A stretch of 60,027 nt of DNA from a virus: positions 1 through 60,027 of the IMG/VR virus record IMGVR_UViG_3300046665_000292. One strand, 5' to 3'. A program made the position numbers and the translations under genes. Numbering within the stretch: position 1 is the stretch's first letter; each line of letters begins with the position of its first letter. Below the pieces are notes generated by a model. It was not told the origin of the DNA. It made no database searches and saw nothing but the letters and a program-made list of their open reading frames with translations. Shown here piece by piece: positions 175 to 60,027 of this stretch.

Positions 175-206
175 AAGGCATCAGCCCCATGCGGGATTGA
201 TGCCTT
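175..206 (+). terminator. Hairpin upstream of integrase
   Basis: AAGGCATCA (175-183) pairs perfectly with TGATGCCTT (198-206), with a possible inner CCC/GGG pairing, and TTTCGGTTTT follows. It could be a weak rho-independent terminator limiting int expression or part of the attachment region. It covers the upstream in-frame TTG and ATG codons at 197-202, which supports placing the int start downstream at 269. Confidence 0.35.
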
Positions 207-268
207 TCGGTTTTCCGCAGTTCATTTCTGATACCATTTGCCAAAAATTACCAAAAGGATTGGCAAAA

Positions 269-1234
269 ATGGCGGCGCCGAAGAAGGAAGGCAGCGTATG
301 GCGGCATCGTATTATGGTCAAGGGCAAGCGAGTCTCAGGGACCTTCGCTACCAAAGCCGCGGCGCTGGCGTGGGAGGCCGAGCAGCGGATACAGATCGTC
401 GAAGGCGGCACAAGCGGCAAGAGCAAGACGTTGCGCGATGCACTAGAGAAGTATGAGCTCGAGGTGTCAAAGAAGAAGCGCAGCTATGCCAATGAGGCGA
501 AGCGTATCGCCTGGTTCTCCACAACCGAACTGGCCGAGAAGCGGATTGCCGAAATCAAGCCCGCAGACGTTGCCGCCTGGCGCGATAGCCGTTTGCGTGA
601 AGTGAAGAGCTCATCAGTCAACCGAGATATGAATCTGCTTTCGCATGTCTTCACGGTAGCCAAACGAGAGTGGGGATGGATCAAGGATGTGCCAACAAAG
701 GACGTCGAACGCCCAAAAGACCCGCCGCATCGTGATCGTCGCGTTAGCGAGGAGGAAATCGACCTTGTCTGCCTCCAGCTCGGCTGGGATCGCACAATTC
801 CCGGCGAGCCAGTAACCAAGCAGCACCGTGTCGCACTTGCCTTCCTGTTTGCCATCGAAACGGCGATGCGCGCCGGCGAAATATGCTCCCTTAAGAAAGG
901 CGATGTCCAGGGCCGAGTAGCGCGCCTACATATGACGAAGAATGGTCGGCCGCGTGATGTCCCACTATCGCCGCAGGCTTTGGCTATATGGAAGCTCGTC
1001 CCAAGCGGATTTGACTTGTCATCCGCTATTCTTGACGCCCTGTTCCGCAAGGCCAAGAAGGCGGCTGGCATCGAGGGATTGACCTTCCACGACACCCGTC
1101 ATGAGGCCATTACACGTCTTGCGCAGAAGCTTGACGTGCTTGACCTTGCAAGGATGGTCGGGCACACGAACATCAATCAGTTGCGCACGTATTACAACCC
1201 AACCGCAGACGATATTGCCTCAAGATTGGGCTAA
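269..1234 (+). CDS. int: Tyrosine recombinase integrase
   Basis: The 321-residue protein is a site-specific recombinase that would integrate the phage at attP and, with excisionase, excise it. The N-terminal arm-binding-like part runs to about residue 60 and a core-binding helical domain to about 160. The catalytic domain shows the expected Arg in TAMRAGEI, the HDTR box, the second His in MVGHTN and the Tyr in LRTYYNP. The ATG at 269 is preceded by AAAGGAT at a suitable distance; an in-frame ATG at 200 lies in a hairpin and has no ribosome site. In the circle, the excisionase at 59214 is co-oriented about 700 bp upstream, with the GIY-YIG gene between on the other strand. The 3' end overlaps convergent imuA by 15 bp. 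Confidence 0.93.
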   Translation: MAAPKKEGSVWRHRIMVKGKRVSGTFATKAAALAWEAEQRIQIVEGGTSGKSKTLRDALEKYELEVSKKKRSYANEAKRIAWFSTTELAEKRIAEIKPADVAAWRDSRLREVKSSSVNRDMNLLSHVFTVAKREWGWIKDVPTKDVERPKDPPHRDRRVSEEEIDLVCLQLGWDRTIPGEPVTKQHRVALAFLFAIETAMRAGEICSLKKGDVQGRVARLHMTKNGRPRDVPLSPQALAIWKLVPSGFDLSSAILDALFRKAKKAAGIEGLTFHDTRHEAITRLAQKLDVLDLARMVGHTNINQLRTYYNPTADDIASRLG

Positions 1235-1960
1235 GTCGTAGACTGCGGGCCCAACCACATGCGGCACAGGCGCGGCATGGCGTTGCGGCTGACGCTGATG
1301 CGCAGGGCCTATTGACATCGGTAGGAACAGCGGCTCATCCCGCTGTGGGCCCTGCCGCTTCACGAACCCGATATTGATCCCGCCAGGGGCCGGCCGCACG
1401 CTCAAGCGCAGTGGCGCCGGCGAAGCGTCGACCTCCGCGGCCAGTGGGCGCATATTGAAGAAAAGCGTTTCGCCCTGCTGTGCTGCGAGGTGTAGCCGGC
1501 GTAGGCTGTCGGCGCGCACGTGCTGAATGCGTGAGCTGCTTGTCGACCCTTGACCCGGCCAGAACAGCAAGGCGCCACACCCACCGCTGCGCAGCACCTG
1601 CTCCGCGGCCCACAGTGCGTCGGCCGTTCGATCGGCGCGCAGCCAGATCGCCGATCCTGGCGGAATACCCAAGGCCGTGAGCGAAAGGATCTGAGGTGCG
1701 TGTGGCGGCGTCAGCAGCACCACGCGCCGAGCAGCCACCTTCGCCAGCGCCGGCGCCAATAACCGCATTTCGCCTACGCCAGGCTGCTGGACAAGCAGGT
1801 CGACGAGAGTACCCGTAGGCCAGCCGCCGCCCGGCAATTGATTCGACAACGTTGGGTGGCCGGTGTCGATGCACTGCGCCCGATTACGGGCAAGCTGCGA
1901 AGCGCGCCAGAGTGACGGGTGCAATTGCTCAAGTTCGGCGGCGGGCGGTAGCTGGCTCAC
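1220..1960 (-). CDS. imuA: ImuA-like SOS mutagenesis protein
   Basis: This RecA/SulA-like protein of 246 residues matches ImuA of beta- and gammaproteobacteria. It has the HPSLWRASQLA start, a degenerate nucleotide-loop region LPGGGWPTGTLVDLL, and TADALWAAEQVLRSGGCGALLFW in two blocks. Known ImuA proteins work with ImuB and DnaE2 in SOS-induced error-prone translesion synthesis. The start is GTG at 1960, with only a weak ribosome site. A perfect LexA box lies 16 bp upstream, so it is surely SOS-controlled. No imuB or dnaE2 is present in the whole circle, so the protein must act with host partners or alone. It is convergent with int and divergent from the BPSL0067-type gene. The family call is firm; the role in the phage is unknown. 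Confidence 0.88.
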   Translation of the reverse strand: MSQLPPAAELEQLHPSLWRASQLARNRAQCIDTGHPTLSNQLPGGGWPTGTLVDLLVQQPGVGEMRLLAPALAKVAARRVVLLTPPHAPQILSLTALGIPPGSAIWLRADRTADALWAAEQVLRSGGCGALLFWPGQGSTSSSRIQHVRADSLRRLHLAAQQGETLFFNMRPLAAEVDASPAPLRLSVRPAPGGINIGFVKRQGPQRDEPLFLPMSIGPAHQRQPQRHAAPVPHVVGPAVYDLAQS

Positions 1961-1976
1961 GGTTGACCCAATGAAA

Positions 1977-1996
1977 TACTGTTCTTTTATACAGTA
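1977..1996 (-). promoter_or_regulatory. LexA box (SOS operator) of imuA
   Basis: The sequence TACTGT-N8-ACAGTA is a perfect match to the LexA consensus CTGT-N8-ACAG, extended by one more TA pair on each side. It sits 16 bp before the imuA GTG and should overlap its promoter. It could also influence the divergent operon starting at 2098. LexA binding is inferred from the exact match. Confidence 0.85.
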
Positions 1997-2097
1997 TATC
2001 AGAGCCGGTTGCGCTTCCTCCCGATGCTCGGTTGACGTCCGCCAAGTTGCTGTAAACCCAACACTGCGACCATGTACTCATCAACGACGGAGGGCAT

Positions 2098-2906: not shown

Positions 2907-3103
2907 CGCAGGACGACGACGCGCGGAGTGACCTGATCACCGCCAGCCGGGTTGACCTCGCGCTCATCCTGCTGCCGCTGGTCGGATGGCTCAAGACGTC
3001 CTACACCTTGGCGGCGAGCGGCGTCCCGCTTGAGGTCGCTGTGCGGGTCATGGTCCTACCGCAAGCACGCAGGCCTACGCGGCCAGCAGCATTTCTGGTG
3101 TGA
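2897..3103 (+). CDS. Small hypothetical protein, one hydrophobic segment
   Basis: The 68-codon frame starts at an ATG inside the STY0301-like gene (10-bp overlap) and ends 29 bp inside the 3' end of the opposing metallophosphoesterase gene. It has an acidic N-terminus and a hydrophobic stretch (LALILLPLVGWL). Nothing is recognised. It may be a translated third cistron of the operon or a remnant; coding evidence is weak. Confidence 0.3.
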   Translation: MQVTQDDDARSDLITASRVDLALILLPLVGWLKTSYTLAASGVPLEVAVRVMVLPQARRPTRPAAFLV

Positions 3104-4262
3104 CGGTGTTCCTGCAGACAACCCCGAAGTCGGCATGATAGGTGATCGCGGTGCACTGCCGATCGCTCATCCAGCCGCCGCGCGCCGCATAAGCATCCCG
3201 AGCCGCCAGGGTCGAGTGCTGGACCACGGACATTCCGGAGTGCTCCTTTTCCTCGAAGTGGTGACGATGCCCCGTGTGCGCATAGCGCCGGGTTGTCTCG
3301 CCCCACACCTTCGGGAACTGCGCGGCGAATAACAGCGGCAGCTGGTCATTCTTCTTCAGGTGCCCGTGGTGCCACGCCAGCATGGTCTGGCCGTGCTGGT
3401 AGACGTAGTAAGGTAGCTCCGAATCGATCACCTCGACCCGCGGCTCGTTCTCGTACAGCGCCTTGAACATGGCGCGTAGCCAGACGCTGGACGCCAAGTC
3501 GTGATTGCCCTCTGCCATCAGGACTACCACGCGCTCATGCTTCTGCAGCGCGAAGCCGATCACCCGGCGCAGAATCCGGATTGCCGTCTGCACGACCTTC
3601 GGGAATCGGCCGTCCTGGTCCAGAATGTGGCCGGACGTCGGCGTTTTGGCCTCCAGCCCATCGGAATGCAGGAAGTCGCCGAGCTGGGCGACGATACCGG
3701 TGCGCGCCGGCGGGCTTGCCATCACCATGTGCTCGAAGCAGCCAGTGAGCGTGCGCTCGGCGATTGCCAGATCCCAACTGCCGTTCGGGTCCAGATTCTC
3801 CCGATGCCAGCATAACGCCCCGACGTGCGAATCGGTCAGGGTGTAGACGCTGGCAAGTTTGGCGTCGGTGAGCACTGGTGCTTTTGTCGGCTTGACGCGC
3901 GGGAGCTCTTCAGCCATTGCGGCAGCAGCAGCCAGCAGGATCTCGCGCTGTCGCTCCCTATCGGGCGATGCTATTACCCACTGCTGGCCGAGTGCACCAT
4001 TTTCCTTGTAGTTCGTGCTGATGCGCCCAGCAAAGAAGCCATCCGGCACAGCCCGGGTCATGCCATGCTCTGGCGAGTAGCCGCGGCGCGCCCCTGATTT
4101 CTTGAGCCGGTCCATCGACTCCTGAACAGCGCTCTTCGTCACGCCAAGCGCCTTCGCGGCGGCCCGCATGCTACCGTTCTTCTCGATGGCGTCGATGTAC
4201 TCGATCTGACGAACGGTTGCGAACTCGACCAGCTTCGGGTCGATGATTGGTTGCTTGGTCAT
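3075..4262 (-). CDS. HTH-metallophosphoesterase fusion protein
   Basis: The first 60 or so residues form a helix-turn-helix (SMRAAAKALGVTKSAVQESM), then a calcineurin-like phosphoesterase domain follows with metal motifs in order: LTDSHVG, QLGDFL, AEGNHDLA, WHHGH and TGHRHH. Such proteins occur at the end of late operons of many temperate siphophages; a DNA or nucleotide phosphoesterase activity is likely, but the substrate is unknown. AAGGAAAAGC precedes the ATG. It is the most distal minus-strand gene, separated from the lysis cassette by a plus-strand small gene, so it probably has its own promoter in 4263-4398. Confidence 0.8.
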   Translation of the reverse strand: MTKQPIIDPKLVEFATVRQIEYIDAIEKNGSMRAAAKALGVTKSAVQESMDRLKKSGARRGYSPEHGMTRAVPDGFFAGRISTNYKENGALGQQWVIASPDRERQREILLAAAAAMAEELPRVKPTKAPVLTDAKLASVYTLTDSHVGALCWHRENLDPNGSWDLAIAERTLTGCFEHMVMASPPARTGIVAQLGDFLHSDGLEAKTPTSGHILDQDGRFPKVVQTAIRILRRVIGFALQKHERVVVLMAEGNHDLASSVWLRAMFKALYENEPRVEVIDSELPYYVYQHGQTMLAWHHGHLKKNDQLPLLFAAQFPKVWGETTRRYAHTGHRHHFEEKEHSGMSVVQHSTLAARDAYAARGGWMSDRQCTAITYHADFGVVCRNTVTPEMLLAA

Positions 4263-9114: not shown

Positions 9115-10049
9115 CAGATATTGCCTTCCACTTTCAGATTGATTGATGTAGTTCCGGCCGAATCCGCCCGAATGCTTCCGGAAACGAACCCGAGAGTGTT
9201 GAGATACCCATACCGAGGCAGCCCACTCGCCTCAAACGGAACAGCTGTATCGATGATGTCGCCCAGGATTGCGTCAGCGTTCATGGCCTGCTCGGCGTCG
9301 ATCACGATGCTGCAGCTCACATCCCGGCTGCGGGCGCGCCTCGTGATCTTGTAAGTTCCATCAAAGTTGTATTCCCTTAACGTGTAAGTCTTCCGGTTGG
9401 ACTCGGCGCCATATTGGGCCCCACCGAACTGGCCATCACCGATGAATTGGCGCCAATCGCCGAGCTTGATGGTTCCGATCGCCACCCGGGCGCCAGGGGC
9501 GGCCGAGACGGTGATCGCCACCTCGGCATTGGGCGTGATCGGTATGCCGTCAAACGAGATTTGTTCTGTTGGCGTCAGCACGGAAAACAGCAATTCGTAG
9601 AAGCCCGCAGCCTGGCTGTACAGATCGCCACTCCACGAGCGGATTACAGCGCCGCCTGGGCCGTCGCGCACAACAACGCTGTAGTTCGAGCCCTCCATAC
9701 CGTACACAGAGGCGCCGTTTATAAAGCCCGGCTGAATCACATATGTCAGCGAGCCGGTAGATACGACTTTCGTATTGGAGTAATCGTCGAACGGAGCCAT
9801 GCGGTTTGTGGGCCCTTCGCGAACCCAGTACTTAGTGTCGAGATCCGGAGTGGCCGCCCGGCCCGTGTGAGCCAACTGACACACCCACACGGAGCCGCTG
9901 TAAGTGCGCTGGTCAGGCACGGCGTAATTTCCACCGGCTACCCAAGCGATCTCCCCATTAGCAGTGTCGGGTTCGGGAATCGTCGTACCACTCTTGATCA
10001 TGCTCGTGGTGATATCGACGGGCACCATGACCCTAGCGCTCGCCGTCAT
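9114..10049 (-). CDS. Distal tail / fibre-attachment protein
   Basis: The 311-residue protein directly follows the tape measure (ATGA-type overlap). It has a repeat-like binding module near residues 30-75 (AWVAGGNYAVPDQRTYSG..VWVCQLAHTG), a beta-rich middle, and a C-terminal domain starting near GDWRQFIGDGQFGGAQYGAE. This place normally holds distal tail or hub proteins. It is unusually compact: no separate minor-tail M/L/I/J set follows. Exact function is uncertain. Confidence 0.5.
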   Translation of the reverse strand: MTASARVMVPVDITTSMIKSGTTIPEPDTANGEIAWVAGGNYAVPDQRTYSGSVWVCQLAHTGRAATPDLDTKYWVREGPTNRMAPFDDYSNTKVVSTGSLTYVIQPGFINGASVYGMEGSNYSVVVRDGPGGAVIRSWSGDLYSQAAGFYELLFSVLTPTEQISFDGIPITPNAEVAITVSAAPGARVAIGTIKLGDWRQFIGDGQFGGAQYGAESNRKTYTLREYNFDGTYKITRRARSRDVSCSIVIDAEQAMNADAILGDIIDTAVPFEASGLPRYGYLNTLGFVSGSIRADSAGTTSINLKVEGNI

Positions 10050-13000
10050 GCGACCTCCTTCGTTTTGACGGTATTGATTACCTCGGCGCGGATGGCATTG
10101 CCACCGTCCGTTGCATTCTCGAACATGTCCTTATGATCCCCAGTGTTGTTGGCGATGCGATCGAGTGCCGCCTGTTGTTCAGCCACTTTTGCAGTGAGCC
10201 GATCAACCGCCGCGGCGAGGACTTCCACGTTCGACGAAGGATTCGAAGCGCGCGCCAGCACAGACATCAGCATCCGGTTATCCGCTGCCGGGATGATTCG
10301 CTCACCCTGGTGGATAAGCGCCGGCATCGTCTCCGGCACAAAGTTCGTGCCGACGGCGAACGGGTGCAGCTTCTTGTACTCATCACTCCCTAGGATGGCG
10401 GAGCGAATGGAGTCGAGCGAGGTGCCGCGGGCAATCTGGTCCTGCCAGAACTGCACCCCGGATTGGTCAGGCGCGCGGCCGAGAAGATCCTGGTAGAAGC
10501 CGGCGATGGTCGACGTTCCGCCAACAACCGGATTCGCCTGCGCGGAGCCGATGGACGACTGAAACGCCGCCATCACCTGGGCGAGCGACAGCAGGCCGAC
10601 CGACTGCCCATTCAGCGCATCGATCTGCGCCTGTCCGTTTGCCACGATCGCATCGAGCGATTTGAGTTGGGCGTTCAGCGCATCGAGCGACTTCTGCTCA
10701 ACCGACAGCGAATCGTCAGTGATATCACCCAACTGGGCGACGTCGTTCTGTGTCTTCAGCAGGTCTCGCATGTAATCGGAGTAACTCGAGAACTGCGAAC
10801 TAGCGTCTTGCGTGACCGCGCCAAGCGCCTTCTTCAGCGACTCGACTTGTGCATCCGACAGCGTGCCGCCTGCCTTTGTGATTGCCAGGTCGGCCCGAAT
10901 CTCGGCCTGCGCCATCGCCCGGGCGTACAGCTTCTGCTCGGGCGACTGCAGGCTATCGAGCGTGCTGTGGAGCGCTTGCGACAGGCTTTGCAGCTTGGTG
11001 AAGGCCGCAGTATGCGTGTCGACGCTTACTTGGATCGCCGACTTCTCGCGCGACACGACCTTTTGCAGCGCCGAATACGCATCGTTGACGCCGGCGAGCA
11101 TCGTGCTTGCTGCATCCTTCACAGCTTGCAGCGCTGCCGCAGCCTTCTCCGCCTCGGCAGCGGCCTTGGCAGCCGCTTCGGCCACCGCATCAACAGCCGG
11201 ATGCACCTGAGCGAATGCTTCCGCAAGGGCCAGGAGAGAATCCAACTGCTTCGCGCCCGACTCGCTCGCCGCGGCGCCCGAGGTGATCAGGTCATCGACC
11301 AGAGCCTTGAACTCGTCCCGCGTTGTGGGGATCGTGCTCAAGCCGAGGCTGGCCAGCGCCTTATCCAGCGCCTCAGCTACCGGCTTGATTCGCTCGGCGT
11401 CGCTGAGGAAGTTCTGATTGAACGTCGAGGCGTACCCGCTCAGCACCTGCAGACCGCCGGCCAGGTCGATTAGCTGCTCGCGAGCCTTTGCCGACTCTAG
11501 CCCAGTCGAGCCGAACAGGGAACTGGCAGAGAAGCCCAGGAGTTGCGCGACCTTGTCCGTGCCCTGGAAGTCTCCGGCCAAGCGCTGCAGCGTTGCCGAC
11601 AGCGTTTCGCCCGACTTGTTGAAGTCGCTCAGGTTCGGGACAAGCTTATTGGCGATTTCGTCACCGATCCCTTGGAAGAAATCGGTAATCGCTTGCTGGT
11701 CCTTCGTGGCATCGCCGGTCAGCTTAAGATCGAAGGTCTTCGAATAGTCCTTAATCCAATCTGCCTGCACGCCAAGCGATGATGCAAAGCCGCTCGAAGC
11801 GCTCTCGATCGACGCCAGACCCTGGGTGAATTGCTTGACCATTGCATCGGTCAGCGCGGTTGTATCCTTCCCGTCCTTGTCGGACCGGAACCAACCGCCG
11901 TCCTGATGCCAGTTCGCGTAATTCTGGCCCGTAAGGCTCGATGCAGTCAGTGTGCCGCTGACACCCTGGCTCGTCACCTCCTTGCTTCCCATGCCGAAGG
12001 CGCGGTTGACCAATCCGCCGATCACGCCTGCCACTGCGCCGCCGATCGGGCCAAAGATGGCACTTGCAACCGCAGTGCCAATTTTCTCAACCGTCATGAC
12101 GCCGGAGCCAGTCTCGTACTTGCCCGATATGGCGGAGTTCAGCGACGAGCCGATCATGTAGCCGCCGACCGTGCCACCGATCTGCCCAGCCCATTGAGCC
12201 GCCTGACCGGGAGCGCCGCCGCCCATCGACAGGCCGAGCTTGTCAAAGCCGGTCTGTACGCCACTCGCGATGGATTGCTCCATCGTCCCGCCACTCTTGA
12301 ACATGGTGTACATGTTCGATGCGGCCTGGGCTGCGGTGATAGTGCTGTTACCGGCGCCGACGCTTCCAGCCGGCGCCGGGATGCCGCTGAGAGTAGCCGC
12401 CACCGCAGGCCCGGAAATAGCTCCGGCGAGGCTGGTCACGATCTGGACGACGTACTTCTTGACGAAGGTCTGGTACAGCGCCTCCGCCAAAGACTGCTTG
12501 AGTGTGTTGCCGATCGACTTCGTGAACGACGACCAGACATTCTGGCCACCGACCAGCATGTCGCGGAATCCTTCCTGGAAGTTGTTGTCGAGGTTGTCGA
12601 TCACGCCCTTCCAGCGGTCTAGCACTGGCTGCATTTGGCGGTTTGCCATCCAGACGTCGAACTGCTCGAGGATCTTCTTGCGAGCCTCCGAACCCTCTTC
12701 CGTGTGGTCGATCAGGTACTGCCACTGCCTTGCATCGATCGCGGTGATGCGCTGGGCGCGAAGGTCGGCGTCGGCGATGTACTGCGCGGAGAACTTCTCG
12801 TTGTCACGAAGGAGTTGGTTGGCGGCGGCGAGAGCTGCTTCCTGGTTAATCTCTTCGGCTGCAGCGGCTTTGCTGGCTTCTGCTCGCGCCCGGAATCCAG
12901 CAATCTCTTCTGCCGTATATGCAATTCCCTTCGCCTTACGCTCGTCGATCTTCTTTTGCAACTCAAGATCGATCTGCGCTTGCGCGATGTACGTCTTACG

Positions 13001-14971
13001 TGCTTGGTCAGACTGCCCGAACAGCGCCAACTCCTGCGCTACGGCCTCTCGTTGCGCGTTGATGGTCCGATCCCAGCCCGCGACCACATCATCGATCGAC
13101 TTCTTGCGATCAAAGTCCGCTTCCTTGATAGAGTTCGTGGCCCCGCTGATGATGTTGGCGCGCTTCTGCATGAGAACAGCCAGCTCGCCATTTGCCTTCT
13201 CGCGTGCCGACTTTTCTTCCTTGCCGTCAGCGATGCGGGCCTGCTCTTTCAGTATCGGTATTTCGAGGTCGATTTCGCGAAGTTGAATATCCCGCTTCTT
13301 GGCGTAGTACTCGTCCTGGCTGATTAGCTGCCGCTTGTATAGGCTTTCAGCGTCAGCCAACTCGCCAACCATCTTCTCCTTTTGGAGACTGCGGTTGTTC
13401 TCAAGTTGGGTCAGCGTGACGTTGTTCAGGTCAAAGTACTTTTGCTTGACCCTGTCGACTGCCTTCTTAATGTCCTCATCGGACGCACCGGCCTCCAAGC
13501 CCTCGTTCGTAACTTTCGCAATTTCCCGGCGCTGCAGCTCCGCCTTGGACAGGGTGCCATCCATGATCTTGGACCATTCAAGTCCAGCCTGGCGAAGCTT
13601 TTCGGAAGCTCCTGCTTGCTGGGCGTCCCATGCATCCTTCTCTACTTGCCCTTGCAACTCCGTCTCGCGCTTCAGCAACTCGGTCAGCTTTGAGGCGGCT
13701 TTCGCCCGCATCATCTCCGCAGCGTCTCCGCGGTCGCCGGCGCCAGTGCCGGCAGGCATACGCGCCAGCTTGATTTGCTCTTGGACTTCGGCCAACTCTT
13801 GAGCCGGCGTCTTCTTGCGACCAACCCCGAGGAAGACGTCCCATGCTTTCGCGGCGGATTCTTTCGCCCCCATCCAGGCGCCCTCGATCACGCCGAGATT
13901 GTCCTTCATCGCTTTCGCGCGGCCTGCGAAAGCATCCGAATATGCCTTTTGCGCTACCTCGGCGGCCTCGTCGTTCTTGCCCTGATCCTGGAGGGCCTTG
14001 ATTTGCTCATACGTCGCAGCCGTCAAGTAGTGGTACGACTCGCTCAGTTTCAGACTGGCCTGGACCGGCGATTTACCGAGCTCCTCGAAGTCCTTAACCG
14101 TGTCTTCGACACTGCGTCCAATGTACTTTTGAACCTGAACAGCAACAGCGCCAAACTGCTTAAGGTTATCTGCGCCGACCTGTCCGGTGCTGACCAGCGC
14201 CGCTACAGCCTGCGATGCCTCCGCCTGAGTACCAACGGTCTTACTGATCGCGGCAGCGTAGGCTGACAACTGGCTCGTGCTTGCGCCGGCCGCGTTGGCG
14301 GACATGATGATCGCCCGCGTGTATGCGTCGGCTTCTTTGGAGCCTTCGGAATACGCATAAGCCAGGGCACCCAGAGCTGCTGCCCCTACAGCTACGGGAC
14401 TGACCAATCCGAGGATCGAAGATCCTACGCCACGGATAGTGGCTGGGATGCTCCCGAATTGGTCGCGAAGTTGTCCTCCCTGCTGCAGGAGAACGAGCAG
14501 CGGCGACTGACCACCGGCCAACTGAGTTGCCACGTCCGTCAACTGAGCCGGCACCATGCGCATTGCGTTGGTGATTTGAGCTGCCGACGCGCCAGCGGAA
14601 GTGGCCGTACGTGCCTGGGCTTGTTCCACCGAGCGAAGCTGATCGAGATATGGCCGTAGCGTATTCGGGTCGATACCGCGCTGCCGCGCCATTGCCTCGT
14701 AATATGCGACTGTCTGCCGTCCTCCAGCCTCCATCGCTGCCGTCGTTCGCTGGATCGAGCCAATGATGCTTCGGCTTGCCGAGTCGACCCGCTGCGAGGA
14801 TGCGGATGCGCCACTCCCGATACCAGCAACGGCGCGTTCTGCTTGCTCTCCGGAGCGAGTAACCTGCTGGGCCATCTGCCCGGCCTGCTGCCCGATCTCG
14901 TTGAATCCGGCGCGAGTGCGGGTCGTGTCGACCTCTGCAACTAGTTGTACCCGGCGCTCTTCAGTCGACAT
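10046..14971 (-). CDS. Tape measure protein
   Basis: The 1,641-residue protein (MSTEERRVQLVAEVDTTRTR start) is by far the longest of the genome. It carries the N-terminal TMP domain (LRSVEQAQARTATSAG, MRMVPAQLTDVATQLAGGQS), a glycine/alanine hydrophobic central part, long coiled coils, and a Phage-tail DUF4214-like block (FYQDLLGRAPDQSGVQFWQDQI). It sets tail length and exits with the DNA. At about 0.15 nm per residue it predicts a tail near 250 nm. The ATG at 14971 lies 13 bp behind a terminator, so expression depends on read-through or a promoter hidden there. Confidence 0.93.
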   Translation of the reverse strand: MSTEERRVQLVAEVDTTRTRAGFNEIGQQAGQMAQQVTRSGEQAERAVAGIGSGASASSQRVDSASRSIIGSIQRTTAAMEAGGRQTVAYYEAMARQRGIDPNTLRPYLDQLRSVEQAQARTATSAGASAAQITNAMRMVPAQLTDVATQLAGGQSPLLVLLQQGGQLRDQFGSIPATIRGVGSSILGLVSPVAVGAAALGALAYAYSEGSKEADAYTRAIIMSANAAGASTSQLSAYAAAISKTVGTQAEASQAVAALVSTGQVGADNLKQFGAVAVQVQKYIGRSVEDTVKDFEELGKSPVQASLKLSESYHYLTAATYEQIKALQDQGKNDEAAEVAQKAYSDAFAGRAKAMKDNLGVIEGAWMGAKESAAKAWDVFLGVGRKKTPAQELAEVQEQIKLARMPAGTGAGDRGDAAEMMRAKAASKLTELLKRETELQGQVEKDAWDAQQAGASEKLRQAGLEWSKIMDGTLSKAELQRREIAKVTNEGLEAGASDEDIKKAVDRVKQKYFDLNNVTLTQLENNRSLQKEKMVGELADAESLYKRQLISQDEYYAKKRDIQLREIDLEIPILKEQARIADGKEEKSAREKANGELAVLMQKRANIISGATNSIKEADFDRKKSIDDVVAGWDRTINAQREAVAQELALFGQSDQARKTYIAQAQIDLELQKKIDERKAKGIAYTAEEIAGFRARAEASKAAAAEEINQEAALAAANQLLRDNEKFSAQYIADADLRAQRITAIDARQWQYLIDHTEEGSEARKKILEQFDVWMANRQMQPVLDRWKGVIDNLDNNFQEGFRDMLVGGQNVWSSFTKSIGNTLKQSLAEALYQTFVKKYVVQIVTSLAGAISGPAVAATLSGIPAPAGSVGAGNSTITAAQAASNMYTMFKSGGTMEQSIASGVQTGFDKLGLSMGGGAPGQAAQWAGQIGGTVGGYMIGSSLNSAISGKYETGSGVMTVEKIGTAVASAIFGPIGGAVAGVIGGLVNRAFGMGSKEVTSQGVSGTLTASSLTGQNYANWHQDGGWFRSDKDGKDTTALTDAMVKQFTQGLASIESASSGFASSLGVQADWIKDYSKTFDLKLTGDATKDQQAITDFFQGIGDEIANKLVPNLSDFNKSGETLSATLQRLAGDFQGTDKVAQLLGFSASSLFGSTGLESAKAREQLIDLAGGLQVLSGYASTFNQNFLSDAERIKPVAEALDKALASLGLSTIPTTRDEFKALVDDLITSGAAASESGAKQLDSLLALAEAFAQVHPAVDAVAEAAAKAAAEAEKAAAALQAVKDAASTMLAGVNDAYSALQKVVSREKSAIQVSVDTHTAAFTKLQSLSQALHSTLDSLQSPEQKLYARAMAQAEIRADLAITKAGGTLSDAQVESLKKALGAVTQDASSQFSSYSDYMRDLLKTQNDVAQLGDITDDSLSVEQKSLDALNAQLKSLDAIVANGQAQIDALNGQSVGLLSLAQVMAAFQSSIGSAQANPVVGGTSTIAGFYQDLLGRAPDQSGVQFWQDQIARGTSLDSIRSAILGSDEYKKLHPFAVGTNFVPETMPALIHQGERIIPAADNRMLMSVLARASNPSSNVEVLAAAVDRLTAKVAEQQAALDRIANNTGDHKDMFENATDGGNAIRAEVINTVKTKEVA

Positions 14972-14983
14972 ATCGTTCGCCCA

Positions 14984-15008
14984 TAAAAAAACCGCCACGA
15001 GGGCGGTT
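14984..15008 (-). terminator. Terminator just upstream of the tape measure gene
   Basis: AACCGCC and GGCGGTT form a 7-bp stem with a 5-nt loop and seven T residues on the minus strand. With the hairpin at 15015-15038 it makes a tandem stop behind the accessory gene at 15046. The T tract and following bases (TTTTTTTATGGGCG) repeat those at 6457. Confidence 0.75.
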
Positions 15009-42469: not shown

Positions 42470-43546
42470 TCAGCCGCAAAGTCCATACGAGGACGAGCAG
42501 GCGGTCGGCTCGTCCAAGTCCGCCAACAGATCAAACTGCCGTCCGCCGCGTGTGGTCTGCGCCCATTCCACGACTTGCCATACTTCGTTGCGGGTGAAGA
42601 TGGCAGCCGCCCGCTCGCCGGTCTGGTCGTCGACCTTGTGGAAGAAGGTGCTATAGCCGCGCTTACTGGCCATTGACACGATGCGTTCCCACTCACCGAT
42701 GCGAACCAGGTGATGGCGCCGACGAACAGCGTGACCACGAATTTCTTTCTTCTTCGAGTTAATGCACGGTGCGCACCCCACGCGGTCGCAGTCCTCGGAA
42801 TACAGTGGATTCGGGAGGCGGCCGCGCTGGTCGCAGTACGCGAAGACTTCCATCTTGGTCATGTCGACCAGTGGGCGGTAGATGAACATTCGCCCGCCAA
42901 GCGGCTCGAATTTCAGTGCATCGCGGCGAGCTAGCGATTCATCGCGGCGCACCCCTTGCCAGCTGATGACGGTATGACCTTGGCCGATAAGGCCCAGCTG
43001 AAACTCAATGGCGATGTTTCGCTTCAGCTCCTCGGTGCAAAACTGTGCCTTGCGGGACGGGAAGCGCCCCTTCCAAATACACAAGTCTAAGAACGCATTT
43101 CCGGTCGGGTACAGCACCGACAGGGCGCGACGCTTAGCCTTGTTTGTCCATCGCCGGCGTCGGCCGCCGCCTACCTTGACTACCTTCTGCACCGGCTTAC
43201 CCTTCTTCATGACGATATTGCCGAAGCCGTCGCGCTTCCACACCGGCGTTTTACCGTCAGCCTCGAACACTGGCTTCGTGTCGTACTCGCGGCCCACTCG
43301 CACGTCGCGCGCCACGAACCTGCGTTTGTCGGCGATCTGCTCACTGAAGTCCGCCTTCAAGCGGTGGATCTTCACGCCGATTTCTCGCTCCAGGTAGTCC
43401 AGATGATCGTAGACGGCCTGATCCTCATTGTCGGTATCGCAAAAAATGCCGATGACACGATGAGCGCCGAATCGCTCGACTGCCATCTCAAGTGTGGCCT
43501 GACTATCGATTCCGCTAGACACCGAGGCTACATGGATAATGCTCAT
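42470..43546 (-). CDS. PAPS-reductase-like PP-loop protein
   Basis: The 358-residue protein has a PP-loop ASVSSGIDSQATLEM near residue 10, IGIFCDTDNED, KAQFCTEELKRNIAI and a Cys cluster CDRVGCAPCINSKKKEI. It belongs to the phosphoadenosine-phosphosulfate-reductase-type family, which includes sulfur-transfer proteins such as DndC. In phages the role is unsettled: sulfur metabolism, tRNA or DNA modification. It is large for a phage accessory gene and lies inside the early operon. Confidence 0.8.
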   Translation of the reverse strand: MSIIHVASVSSGIDSQATLEMAVERFGAHRVIGIFCDTDNEDQAVYDHLDYLEREIGVKIHRLKADFSEQIADKRRFVARDVRVGREYDTKPVFEADGKTPVWKRDGFGNIVMKKGKPVQKVVKVGGGRRRRWTNKAKRRALSVLYPTGNAFLDLCIWKGRFPSRKAQFCTEELKRNIAIEFQLGLIGQGHTVISWQGVRRDESLARRDALKFEPLGGRMFIYRPLVDMTKMEVFAYCDQRGRLPNPLYSEDCDRVGCAPCINSKKKEIRGHAVRRRHHLVRIGEWERIVSMASKRGYSTFFHKVDDQTGERAAAIFTRNEVWQVVEWAQTTRGGRQFDLLADLDEPTACSSSYGLCG

Positions 43547-46370: not shown

Positions 46371-46442
46371 TATACACGAATGGATAAGTATGCAATACCC
46401 AAATGAATAGAAACTTGTGTCTTACTTATACGCGCGCGTATA
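46371..46442. promoter_or_regulatory. cI/cro operator region with three 16-bp sites
   Basis: The sites are TATACACGAATGGATA (46371-46386), AATACCCAAATGAATA (46394-46409) and the perfect palindrome TATACGCGCGCGTATA (46427-46442). The first overlaps the cro -10 (TATAGA, 46374-46369); the third overlaps the cI -10 (TATAGT, 46439-46444). Start-to-start spacing is 23 and 33 bp. This mirrors the OR1-OR3 layout of lambda. The same sites recur at 49579 and 49603. Confidence 0.8.
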
Positions 46443-46450
46443 GTCCGCGC

Positions 46451-47152
46451 ATGACAATCGCAACCAGACTTGATGAGGCCATGAAGGCGGCAGGGAAACT
46501 GTCGCAGAGTGAGCTCTCACGCCGGTCGGGCGTGCCCCAACCCACGATCAACCGCATCCTGAAAGGCACTGGTAAGAAAGGTCCGGAGTCGCACACAATC
46601 AAGCCCCTTGCCGAGGCGTGCAATGTGGCATTCCAATGGCTTTATGAGGGTATCGGTCCAATGGAGCGCGAATCGGCGCGAGCCGCTGGGCCTGATGCTG
46701 AGACGATTAAAGTCTCGGTGGAAGACAAAGAGAGCGGTAAGTTTGTAGGGGTTCGAATGCTCAAGCGCGTGATCCACGCAGGCGTAGATGGTATCGAGGG
46801 GGACTTCGAGTATGACGACGGAATTATTCTTAGCCTCCCCCTGGACTGGGTTGAGCAGAAGCGACTGCGGGCTGAGAACCTGGTCGCCCTGAAGGTCAAA
46901 GGCGAAAGCATGTACCCGACCATGCGAGAGGGTAATGTCGTGATTGTGAATACGGCCGACCGCATGCCGATGGACGGCGAGCTCTTCGCGGTGAACCACA
47001 ACCATAAGCCAGTAGTGAAGCGCCTCGAGCGAGAAGGTGGAAGTTGGTATTTGGCGTCCGACAACAGGTTGCCGCAGTACACCAGGCGCAGCGTCGATGA
47101 GGAGACTCAAATTGTCGGCCGCGTGGTGCGTTTGCAGGTGGACTTCATCTGA
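46451..47152 (+). CDS. cI: CI-type repressor with S24 self-cleavage domain
   Basis: The 233-residue protein has an HTH (LSQSELSRRSGVPQPTINRI), an Ala110-Gly111 cleavage pair in VIHAGVDG, and the LexA-like protease dyad Ser153 (KGESMYPTM) and Lys190 (KPVVKRLE). RecA filaments would trigger self-cleavage and induction. The -35 TTGTGT (46415) and -10 TATAGT (46439) place the transcript start at or near the ATG at 46451, so the message is leaderless like lambda cI from PRM. It heads a plus-strand lysogenic operon. Confidence 0.9.
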   Translation: MTIATRLDEAMKAAGKLSQSELSRRSGVPQPTINRILKGTGKKGPESHTIKPLAEACNVAFQWLYEGIGPMERESARAAGPDAETIKVSVEDKESGKFVGVRMLKRVIHAGVDGIEGDFEYDDGIILSLPLDWVEQKRLRAENLVALKVKGESMYPTMREGNVVIVNTADRMPMDGELFAVNHNHKPVVKRLEREGGSWYLASDNRLPQYTRRSVDEETQIVGRVVRLQVDFI

Positions 47153-56402: not shown

Positions 56403-56488
56403 AAAAGTCACTACTTATCAAAATGCTGCTGGCGTTGATGGAAGCAGCGGCGCAGCGCCAGAAAATAAAGGAGCAACTCCATGACTGA
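56399..56488 (+). CDS. 29-residue linking frame
   Basis: MKKSLLIKMLLALMEAAAQR, then QKIKEQLHD, overlaps the previous stop (ATGA) and the next gene by 8 bp. It has an amphipathic helix. It may mainly couple translation; coding is uncertain. Confidence 0.42.
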   Translation: MKKSLLIKMLLALMEAAAQRQKIKEQLHD

Positions 56489-57815
56489 CCTGAACCAAGG
56501 CGCGAGTATTGAAGCCGAGCTGATGCCCTGCCCCATGTGCGGAGGCGCTGCACACCTGACCAAGGGCTATGCAACTGAGAACGTCTGGTCGCATGGCGAA
56601 TTCCATCGCGTGTTCTGTGGCGCATGCCAGATCAGGCAGCTTTTCCACCAAACCGCAGCCGACGCCATCGCCGTATGGAACCGCCGCTCCGTACCACCCG
56701 CAGCGGGAGGAGATGAGTTGCCGCCGCTGCCGAAGGCACCATGCCTGCTGCCGGGAGTCTACGCCTACCGCCGCGAGGACATGCAGGACTATGCCCGCGC
56801 AGCCTATGCGATGGGCCGAGGTGCTGCCGTGCGCGACTATGTGAACCTGAACGACGCCGCTATCGCCGCTGATCGCGCCCAGCTTTCGGCCAAGGGTCAA
56901 GGCGAGCCTGTCGCCGAGGTGGATGAAGGTGACGAAGGACTGTTCATCGAATTCATCTACGGCCCGGATGGCTCGCCACTCAAGCGGGGCGACAAGCTCT
57001 ACCTCGCCGCACCAGCCAGCGCACAGCTCGCCGATCCGAGCAATGCCGAGTTCTTGGCGAAGCGCCTGTCGCGCGTGGCAAAGTTGACCGGCGCGCATAT
57101 CCCCGAGCACTTCACGCATGAGCAGATTGCTGAGGTGGCCGGAACGATCTTGGGTGAAATCGCGCGGCGGCTTGAGAATGGCCCGCAGCCTGCTGATCTT
57201 CACTGCAAATGGCCGACGTGTCAGTCCGAGGAAGTGCAGCAGCAAGTTGCGGATCAAGCATATCGCGAGCTGTACAGTGGTGCACAGCCCGCCGACCGTG
57301 AATGCAGCGATTGCGAAGGTTCAGGCCGCGTCAGTCCGAATGAGCTTTGTGCTCGTTGTGATGCGAGTGGCGTTCTGCCAGGCGCACAGCCCGACCAGCG
57401 GGAGAGCGCCGAGCAAGCCGAAAAATGCCGCTTGCGCCTCTGCTGCCGCGCCGACCATCACGCAGCGGGCTGTACCACCTACGACCCAGCCCGTTACCCG
57501 GATGAGTTTGCAGATGACCAGCGGGAGAGCGCAGCCGAGCGGTCCCGCGAATGGCAGTCAGTCACGGAGCCGGGCCAAGTGCGCAAGGGCGACAAGCTGC
57601 GCTTCAAGATCGGCGACAAGGCATACAGCGAGCGCGCCAAACTAATTCTAGAGGCCGGAACTGACAAGGAAGAAGTGGTTTACGACATCGGACGCAACTT
57701 CTACTTCATCACCTCGATGGTCATCGGTGGGCGCAGCAACCACAAGGGCGTCGAGTTTTTGTCGAAGCAGGGCCAGGACAGCGCCAATAACAGCGCAGAA
57801 GGAGAGAAGGCATGA
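56481..57815 (+). CDS. Mosaic early protein with N-terminal Lar-like zinc domain
   Basis: The 444-residue protein starts with a Lar-type zinc ribbon (LMPCPMCGGAAHLTKG, HRVFCGACQIRQLF, AIAVWNRRS); Lar proteins alleviate type I restriction. Then follow an EPVAEVDEGDEG..DKLYLA module, helical parts, a CSDCEGSGRVSPNELCARCD zinc repeat (DnaJ-like) and a beta-rich end. The Lar activity is a family inference; the rest is mosaic. Confidence 0.7.
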   Translation: MTDLNQGASIEAELMPCPMCGGAAHLTKGYATENVWSHGEFHRVFCGACQIRQLFHQTAADAIAVWNRRSVPPAAGGDELPPLPKAPCLLPGVYAYRREDMQDYARAAYAMGRGAAVRDYVNLNDAAIAADRAQLSAKGQGEPVAEVDEGDEGLFIEFIYGPDGSPLKRGDKLYLAAPASAQLADPSNAEFLAKRLSRVAKLTGAHIPEHFTHEQIAEVAGTILGEIARRLENGPQPADLHCKWPTCQSEEVQQQVADQAYRELYSGAQPADRECSDCEGSGRVSPNELCARCDASGVLPGAQPDQRESAEQAEKCRLRLCCRADHHAAGCTTYDPARYPDEFADDQRESAAERSREWQSVTEPGQVRKGDKLRFKIGDKAYSERAKLILEAGTDKEEVVYDIGRNFYFITSMVIGGRSNHKGVEFLSKQGQDSANNSAEGEKA

Positions 57816-59491: not shown

Positions 59492-59961
59492 GCTTCGATC
59501 AGGCGCGAGTAGCCATCCAGAGATGGGTAGGCGCTATTAAGGATCGGCTTAATGCGGTGGATGTAGTACGCCTCGATATCTGGGGCGTGCATTTTCGGCG
59601 CTTCGAAGTAGGCGTGCGACGTCCACCTCACCCGGTTTCGCTGGTGTTGCACTGCCCGGTCAAAGAAGTTGTTCGTCTGGCCGATGTATATGCAGACCTC
59701 CCCATCGAACAGGAAATAGACGCCGCTTGCCGACGGCATGTCGGCTGTCGTACGAGCGGCCCATATCTCAGCATCAGTAAAATGGAAGGCTGAGGCATAA
59801 TACCGGAGCCAGTCACCTGGATATTTGTGCTGGTCGTTTGCGCCATGCCAGGCAAAGGACCGATCAATGCCTGGGCAAAGCCTCCTGACGGGAATCAGGT
59901 ACCGTTCGGACTCGTACAGCGCCTCATAGTCTTCAATATCAGCCCTCGTTTTTTCTGGCAT
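59470..59961 (-). CDS. GIY-YIG endonuclease
   Basis: The 163-residue protein has its GIY-YIG core at SGVYFLFDGEVCIYIGQTNN, FFDRAVQHQRNRVRWTSHAY, with the usual Tyr, Arg and a downstream DIEAYYIHRIKPILNSAYP. The N-terminal 75 residues are an extra domain of unknown type. It could be a selfish homing enzyme or an exclusion nuclease. It lies between xis and int on the opposite strand and has its own strong promoter (106-134). The gene crosses the repeat: bases 59901-59961 equal 1-61. Confidence 0.85.
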   Translation of the reverse strand: MPEKTRADIEDYEALYESERYLIPVRRLCPGIDRSFAWHGANDQHKYPGDWLRYYASAFHFTDAEIWAARTTADMPSASGVYFLFDGEVCIYIGQTNNFFDRAVQHQRNRVRWTSHAYFEAPKMHAPDIEAYYIHRIKPILNSAYPSLDGYSRLIEALCLDQA

Positions 59962-60027
59962 TGTTTTGGCAACCTCATCTCTAACCTGTTGAAAACGTAG
60001 AGATAACGATACCGGTCACCGGCACCA
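59901..60027. repeat. Right copy of 127-bp terminal direct repeat
   Basis: These bases equal 1-127 exactly. They show that the contig is circular with unit length 59,900 bp. Confidence 0.95.

Follow-up and report, generated by a model that had tools for sequence, protein, structure and literature searches.

A lone imuA gene with a predicted LexA operator in a clade of viral contigs and Massilia prophages

The viral genome analysed here (IMG/VR record IMGVR_UViG_3300046665_000292, positions 1 to 60,027; this whole stretch of 60,027 nucleotides is called the window) encodes a full-length ImuA protein. The gene stands alone: the phage has neither imuB nor dnaE2, and the locus is not an ImuA-ImuB-DnaE2 cassette. 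It belongs to a single clade of mobile imuA copies, nearly all of them preceded by an operator through which LexA would control them. The phage-supplied ImuA, induced in SOS, most likely works with the ImuB and DnaE2 of the host and raises lesion bypass, a reading in which we place slightly more belief than doubt.

The window carries a perfect 127-bp terminal repeat (1-127 and 59901-60027). The repeat indicates that the genome is circular, with 59,900 bp, and therefore places imuA inside the phage rather than in flanking host DNA; an origin of the gene in host flanks is rejected by the circularity together with the gene order integrase-imuA-tail. The phage has genes for terminase, tape measure, neck, CI, Ant and replication proteins. 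The tape measure gene (10046-14998, minus strand; phrog_25966, phrog_24) lies in the late operon, on the same strand as imuA. The CI-like repressor (46403-47152, plus strand) has an HTH domain (PF01381, 38 bits) and an S24 self-cleavage domain (PF00717, 68.6 bits), so that the prophage is probably inducible by RecA/SOS. Other cargo comprises a phosphoadenosine phosphosulfate reductase-like gene and a gene for a Lar restriction-alleviation domain protein (42470-43546 and 56481-57815).

The imuA gene occupies 1220-1960 on the minus strand, with a GTG start and a TGA stop, and encodes 246 amino acids. The product matches the NCBIfam ImuA model NF033429 with 205.8 bits (cutoff 150) over all model positions, 1-181, which bears out the sequence-only reading of a full-length ImuA; the ORF has no match in PHROGs and nothing above cutoff in Pfam. 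Homology to RecA spans residues ~25-152. The structural model (mean pLDDT 76) has a RecA fold, and its top PDB matches in Foldseek are all RecA (E ~1e-11). The Walker A position reads QQPGVGEM, in which the Lys/Thr are absent. A degenerate Walker A is described for the proteobacterial ImuA1 group (PMC12926913), and proteobacterial ImuA is regarded as a structural protein without an ATPase site (PMC6511836, PMC12926913). The phage protein is an ImuA, with a modelled RecA-like core and no Walker A ATPase site. Its gene converges on that of a tyrosine integrase (197-1234, plus strand; PF00589, 74.8 bits; phrog_1), and the 3' ends overlap by 15 bp, confirming an arrangement seen in the initial reading.

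A predicted LexA operator, TACTGT-N8-ACAGTA (TACTGTTCTTTTATACAGTA), lies at 1977-1996 (core 1979-1994), ~18 bp before the imuA start. It had been called a perfect LexA box. This holds for the two half-sites and fails for the 8-bp spacer, which differs from the E. coli consensus; the same site in the integrated relative L002 has 16/20 identities to that consensus. The pattern CTGT-N8-ACAG occurs once in the 60 kb, and at least once in 47% of shuffled sequences, so its presence alone is not significant. The site is judged real because of its position before imuA and its conservation: an exact core is found at most 120 bp upstream of the gene in 44 of 46 mobile copies, as against at most 1.5% of random windows from the same loci. 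The 6-bp ends of these operators are nearly invariant and the spacer is variable. The two copies without an intact operator are L013, with one arm altered, and the plasmid copy L143. LexA control of phage imuA is thus indicated by operator sequence in these 44 copies, with binding by LexA itself predicted. The same operator stands before chromosomal imuA (78 of 86), and recognition of the phage site by host LexA is therefore expected. A -10-like hexamer read from the letters, TATACT (extended, TGATATACT; 1993-1998, minus strand), overlaps the operator, and the TATACT-GT arrangement recurs in many relatives.

The lone gene is widespread. A first scan of viral contigs returned 37 loci, 36 of them with a full-length ImuA (66-100% identity), and later scans added eight contigs, for a total of more than 40. 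Among 62 genomes of one Massilia group, lone imuA occurs in prophages of six (G001, G016, G027, G041, G042, G055) and on a plasmid in a seventh (G032). No imuB was found in any lone-imuA locus, a few of which end close to imuA, whereas nearly all chromosomal imuA loci have imuB (L070 stops at the contig edge). In the comparison of phage and host trees proposed earlier, the 42 distinct mobile proteins group together in one clade (98/95) that excludes the 82 other ImuA sampled, every chromosomal imuA-imuB among them; the clade grows to 50 entries with extra contigs and remains single. A phage location is not established for two members, L080 (context unknown) and L143 (plasmid). Recent capture of imuA from a host is rejected by the tree. 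The median pairwise dN/dS is 0.256 for mobile imuA versus 0.275 for chromosomal imuA. These data indicate that phage imuA is maintained under purifying selection through long diversification in one phage lineage. The idea of a phage-encoded, standalone, SOS-controlled imuA finds support in the circular genome, the lack of imuB at the locus and the conserved operator, and extends to the whole phage clade.

Several loci were set aside, or stand on their own as observations. L158, a candidate Burkholderiaceae phage copy, was excluded: its imuA is followed directly by dnaE2 with no imuB between, on a contig of the viral collection that is probably host DNA. L280 is a 278,988-bp plasmid-like contig with parA/parB-like neighbours; it falls outside the phage clade and is left out of its count. 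The plasmid copy (L143/L157) is on Massilia putida plasmid NZ_CP019036.1, where lone imuA adjoins kleA. Short C-terminal pieces of ImuA (~residues 176-231), probably remnants, are seen in Massilia genomes or prophage (L038, L126, L156). In L199 and L200 a phage imuA has decayed by internal deletion and frameshift and its LexA operator is intact.

In many relatives, by synteny, the far side of the accessory slot that holds imuA is marked by the exo gene (3078-4262, minus strand; phrog_704, named DNA repair exonuclease), upstream of imuA in the window. Most exo-gene relatives have no imuA in this slot between the exo gene and int; one of them, L209, has an 83%-identical int. The gene is dispensable, since most relatives with this phage backbone do without it and decayed copies exist (L199). 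With an operator of its own, an accessory position outside the lytic core and variable presence among relatives, phage imuA fits a lysogeny gene, or moron. Exo-gene relatives without imuA often have another LexA operator in the same slot, just downstream of the exo gene (L201, L203-L207, L209, L218, L224, L225). In several such slots the ATG of a ~95-residue protein (phrog_5560, of unknown function and unrelated to ImuA) lies inside the LexA operator. A match of 27 bp between L209 and the operator of the window was discounted, as it may reflect just a shared operator consensus.

The attachment site is separate from imuA. L002 has an almost identical int-imuA region that adjoins tRNA-Leu(UAA). 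Over the compared stretch its sequence agrees with that of the window at every position from window base 112 to the end, and diverges to the left of base 112. This boundary defines 112-127, CCGGTCACCGGCACCA, as the attP core, on the far side of int; by alignment and tRNA call it is identical to the 3' end of the tRNA gene in L002. A tRNA-Leu is also found next to a related int in L209 and L140. The integrases adjoining imuA are diverse, all seven tested being tyrosine recombinases of different kinds. The suggestion that imuA is part of the attachment target is refuted by the tRNA core and by family members that carry imuA beside unrelated integrases. Nor was this imuA found at the same place without the phage in host genomes; in Massilia the chromosomal gene comes before imuB and is not a member of the phage clade.

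The presumed partners are at hand, with native imuA, imuB and dnaE2 present in all seven host genomes examined and DnaE2 encoded on the same contig as ImuB, ~30 to 60 kb away. Residues 112-134 of phage ImuA align with the protomer-binding helix stretch of RecA, and from this alignment and general knowledge of RecA filaments we take them to be the groove that accepts ImuB. They are the best-conserved segment of the protein (0.94 in mobile and 0.90 in chromosomal ImuA, with the same residue in 96%). Conservation reaches further: of the 101 columns with at least 95% conservation in chromosomal ImuA, 73 are as well conserved in the mobile protein, which also keeps the conserved core beyond the docking segment, 176-216 among it. 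Divergence in mobile ImuA is seen in the C-tail (217-246) and in the loop at 135-148, and 27 of 42 mobile copies have a 10-residue loop insert; the diverged parts could alter contacts with ImuB-C or DnaE2. In the literature the RecA-NT motif of ImuB is placed on ImuA in the manner of a RecA protomer attaching to its neighbour (PMC6511836, PMC11791113). Docking through this motif is shown in mycobacteria (PMC11791113) and modelled more widely (PMC12926913).

A model can be proposed in which temperate phages infecting Massilia and its relatives have long maintained imuA as a moron, located in the gap that separates int from the end of the late operon. The gene's own operator would let host LexA repress it, and DNA damage would induce it when the S24-type CI repressor would be cleaved. 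The RecA-fold, ATPase-dead protein would then most likely dock on the RecA-NT-like motif of host ImuB and add to the host ImuA-ImuB-DnaE2 mutasome. During SOS, lesion bypass would rise on the DNA of both phage and host, and mutagenesis would follow as a by-product. Binding to ImuB and the effect on bypass are both predicted from sequence. The hosts have a LexA-controlled imuA of their own, so it is hard to see what another copy would add unless the supply of ImuA is limiting.

Other roles have been weighed. Phage ImuA might act on RecA and so tune the strength of SOS, recombination, or the cleavage of CI, whether that of its own phage or of a rival prophage; one way would be to cap filaments through the same groove, which accepts a RecA N-terminus. 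Its RecA fold and RecA-homologous interface segment, the S24 domain of the window phage's own CI and an operator that times expression to RecA activation are all consistent with such action. However, the same conserved surface is present in chromosomal ImuA, whose partners in the mutasome are known, the sequence nowhere favours RecA over ImuB, and the structural, ATPase-less character reported for proteobacterial ImuA (PMC6511836, PMC12926913) also speaks against it; we consider this role rather unlikely. Similarly doubtful is a broader proposal that the site between late operon and int is a dedicated slot for LexA-controlled genes (lone imuA or phrog_5560), with lone ImuA independent of the mutasome and tuning RecA/SOS for prophage induction. 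The protein could also compete with host ImuA for ImuB, giving a less active complex and fewer mutations in the phage genome. Retention of the presumed docking segment while the C-tail and 135-148 loop diverge would suit a competitor, but an antagonist is expected to lose effector surfaces and the core beyond the docking segment is kept, which makes antagonism quite improbable.

Distant similarity to SulA (18.3 bits to TIGR00623; SulA chains 1ofu and 1oft at E ~1e-3 in a profile search), whose fold is RecA-like and related, raises the possibility of a block to cell division in SOS. The score falls so far below the TIGR00623 cutoff of 150 that the protein is not a SulA member, whereas its ImuA score of 205.8 bits is well above the separate ImuA cutoff, also 150, and a SulA-like action is very unlikely. 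That imuA is a captured host gene without lasting use, or a part of the attachment site, is suggested by its position against int and by the decayed copies; the deep single clade, a dN/dS of ~0.26, the conserved operator, the location of att in tRNA-Leu and the unrelated integrases of relatives leave this explanation with hardly any credence.

In G028 (contig C35, ~275146-310067; L149-L151) a Tn7-like transposon sits inside the chromosomal imuA gene, at its conserved CGALLFW codons. It encodes TnsA, a Mu-type transposase, a TniB-like ATPase and TnsD/TniQ, together with a divergent imuA-imuB of its own; its ends read TGT/ACA, and GCTGC looks like a 5-bp duplication. The break in the imuA of G009 is at roughly the same codon, and G013 and G035 have N-terminal imuA fragments beside a sister imuA-imuB. 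A literature search for a Tn7-like transposon in imuA returned no paper.

No phage-borne ImuA was found among the 50,697 records of INPHARED with the window and Paraburkholderia ImuA as queries, and no description was found in the open papers searched; scanning viral contigs with more divergent ImuA yielded little beyond the lone-imuA clade, within the reach that peptide patterns allow. The phage clade is a natural set of ImuA proteins released from the usual operon, and could help to show which surfaces of ImuA are important. If the proposed role is true, prophages set the capacity for damage-induced mutation in these soil bacteria.

Three known systems invite comparison. Phage ImuA shares with the chromosomal ImuA of imuA-imuB-dnaE2 its family, fold, missing Walker A, LexA operator and conserved core; it differs in the absence of imuB and dnaE2, its separate clade, the diverged C-tail and the loop insert. 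Cassettes of imuA-imuB(-dnaE2) borne on plasmids and ICEs are likewise mobile, SOS-controlled mutasome genes, but those have imuB and often dnaE2, whereas the phage imuA is alone. HumD of phage P1, a lone homologue of UmuD' regulated by LexA, supports mutagenesis in SOS (PMC7092418, PMC9603915). Like phage ImuA in the model proposed here, it is a single accessory subunit of a host mutasome, in a temperate phage, under LexA control and with no polymerase partner. It is an unrelated protein, it serves the Pol V mutasome rather than ImuB-DnaE2, and its function has been tested, whereas the role of phage ImuA is proposed from sequence. The lone phage imuA would extend the principle of HumD, a phage lending one SOS-controlled mutasome subunit, to ImuB-DnaE2.
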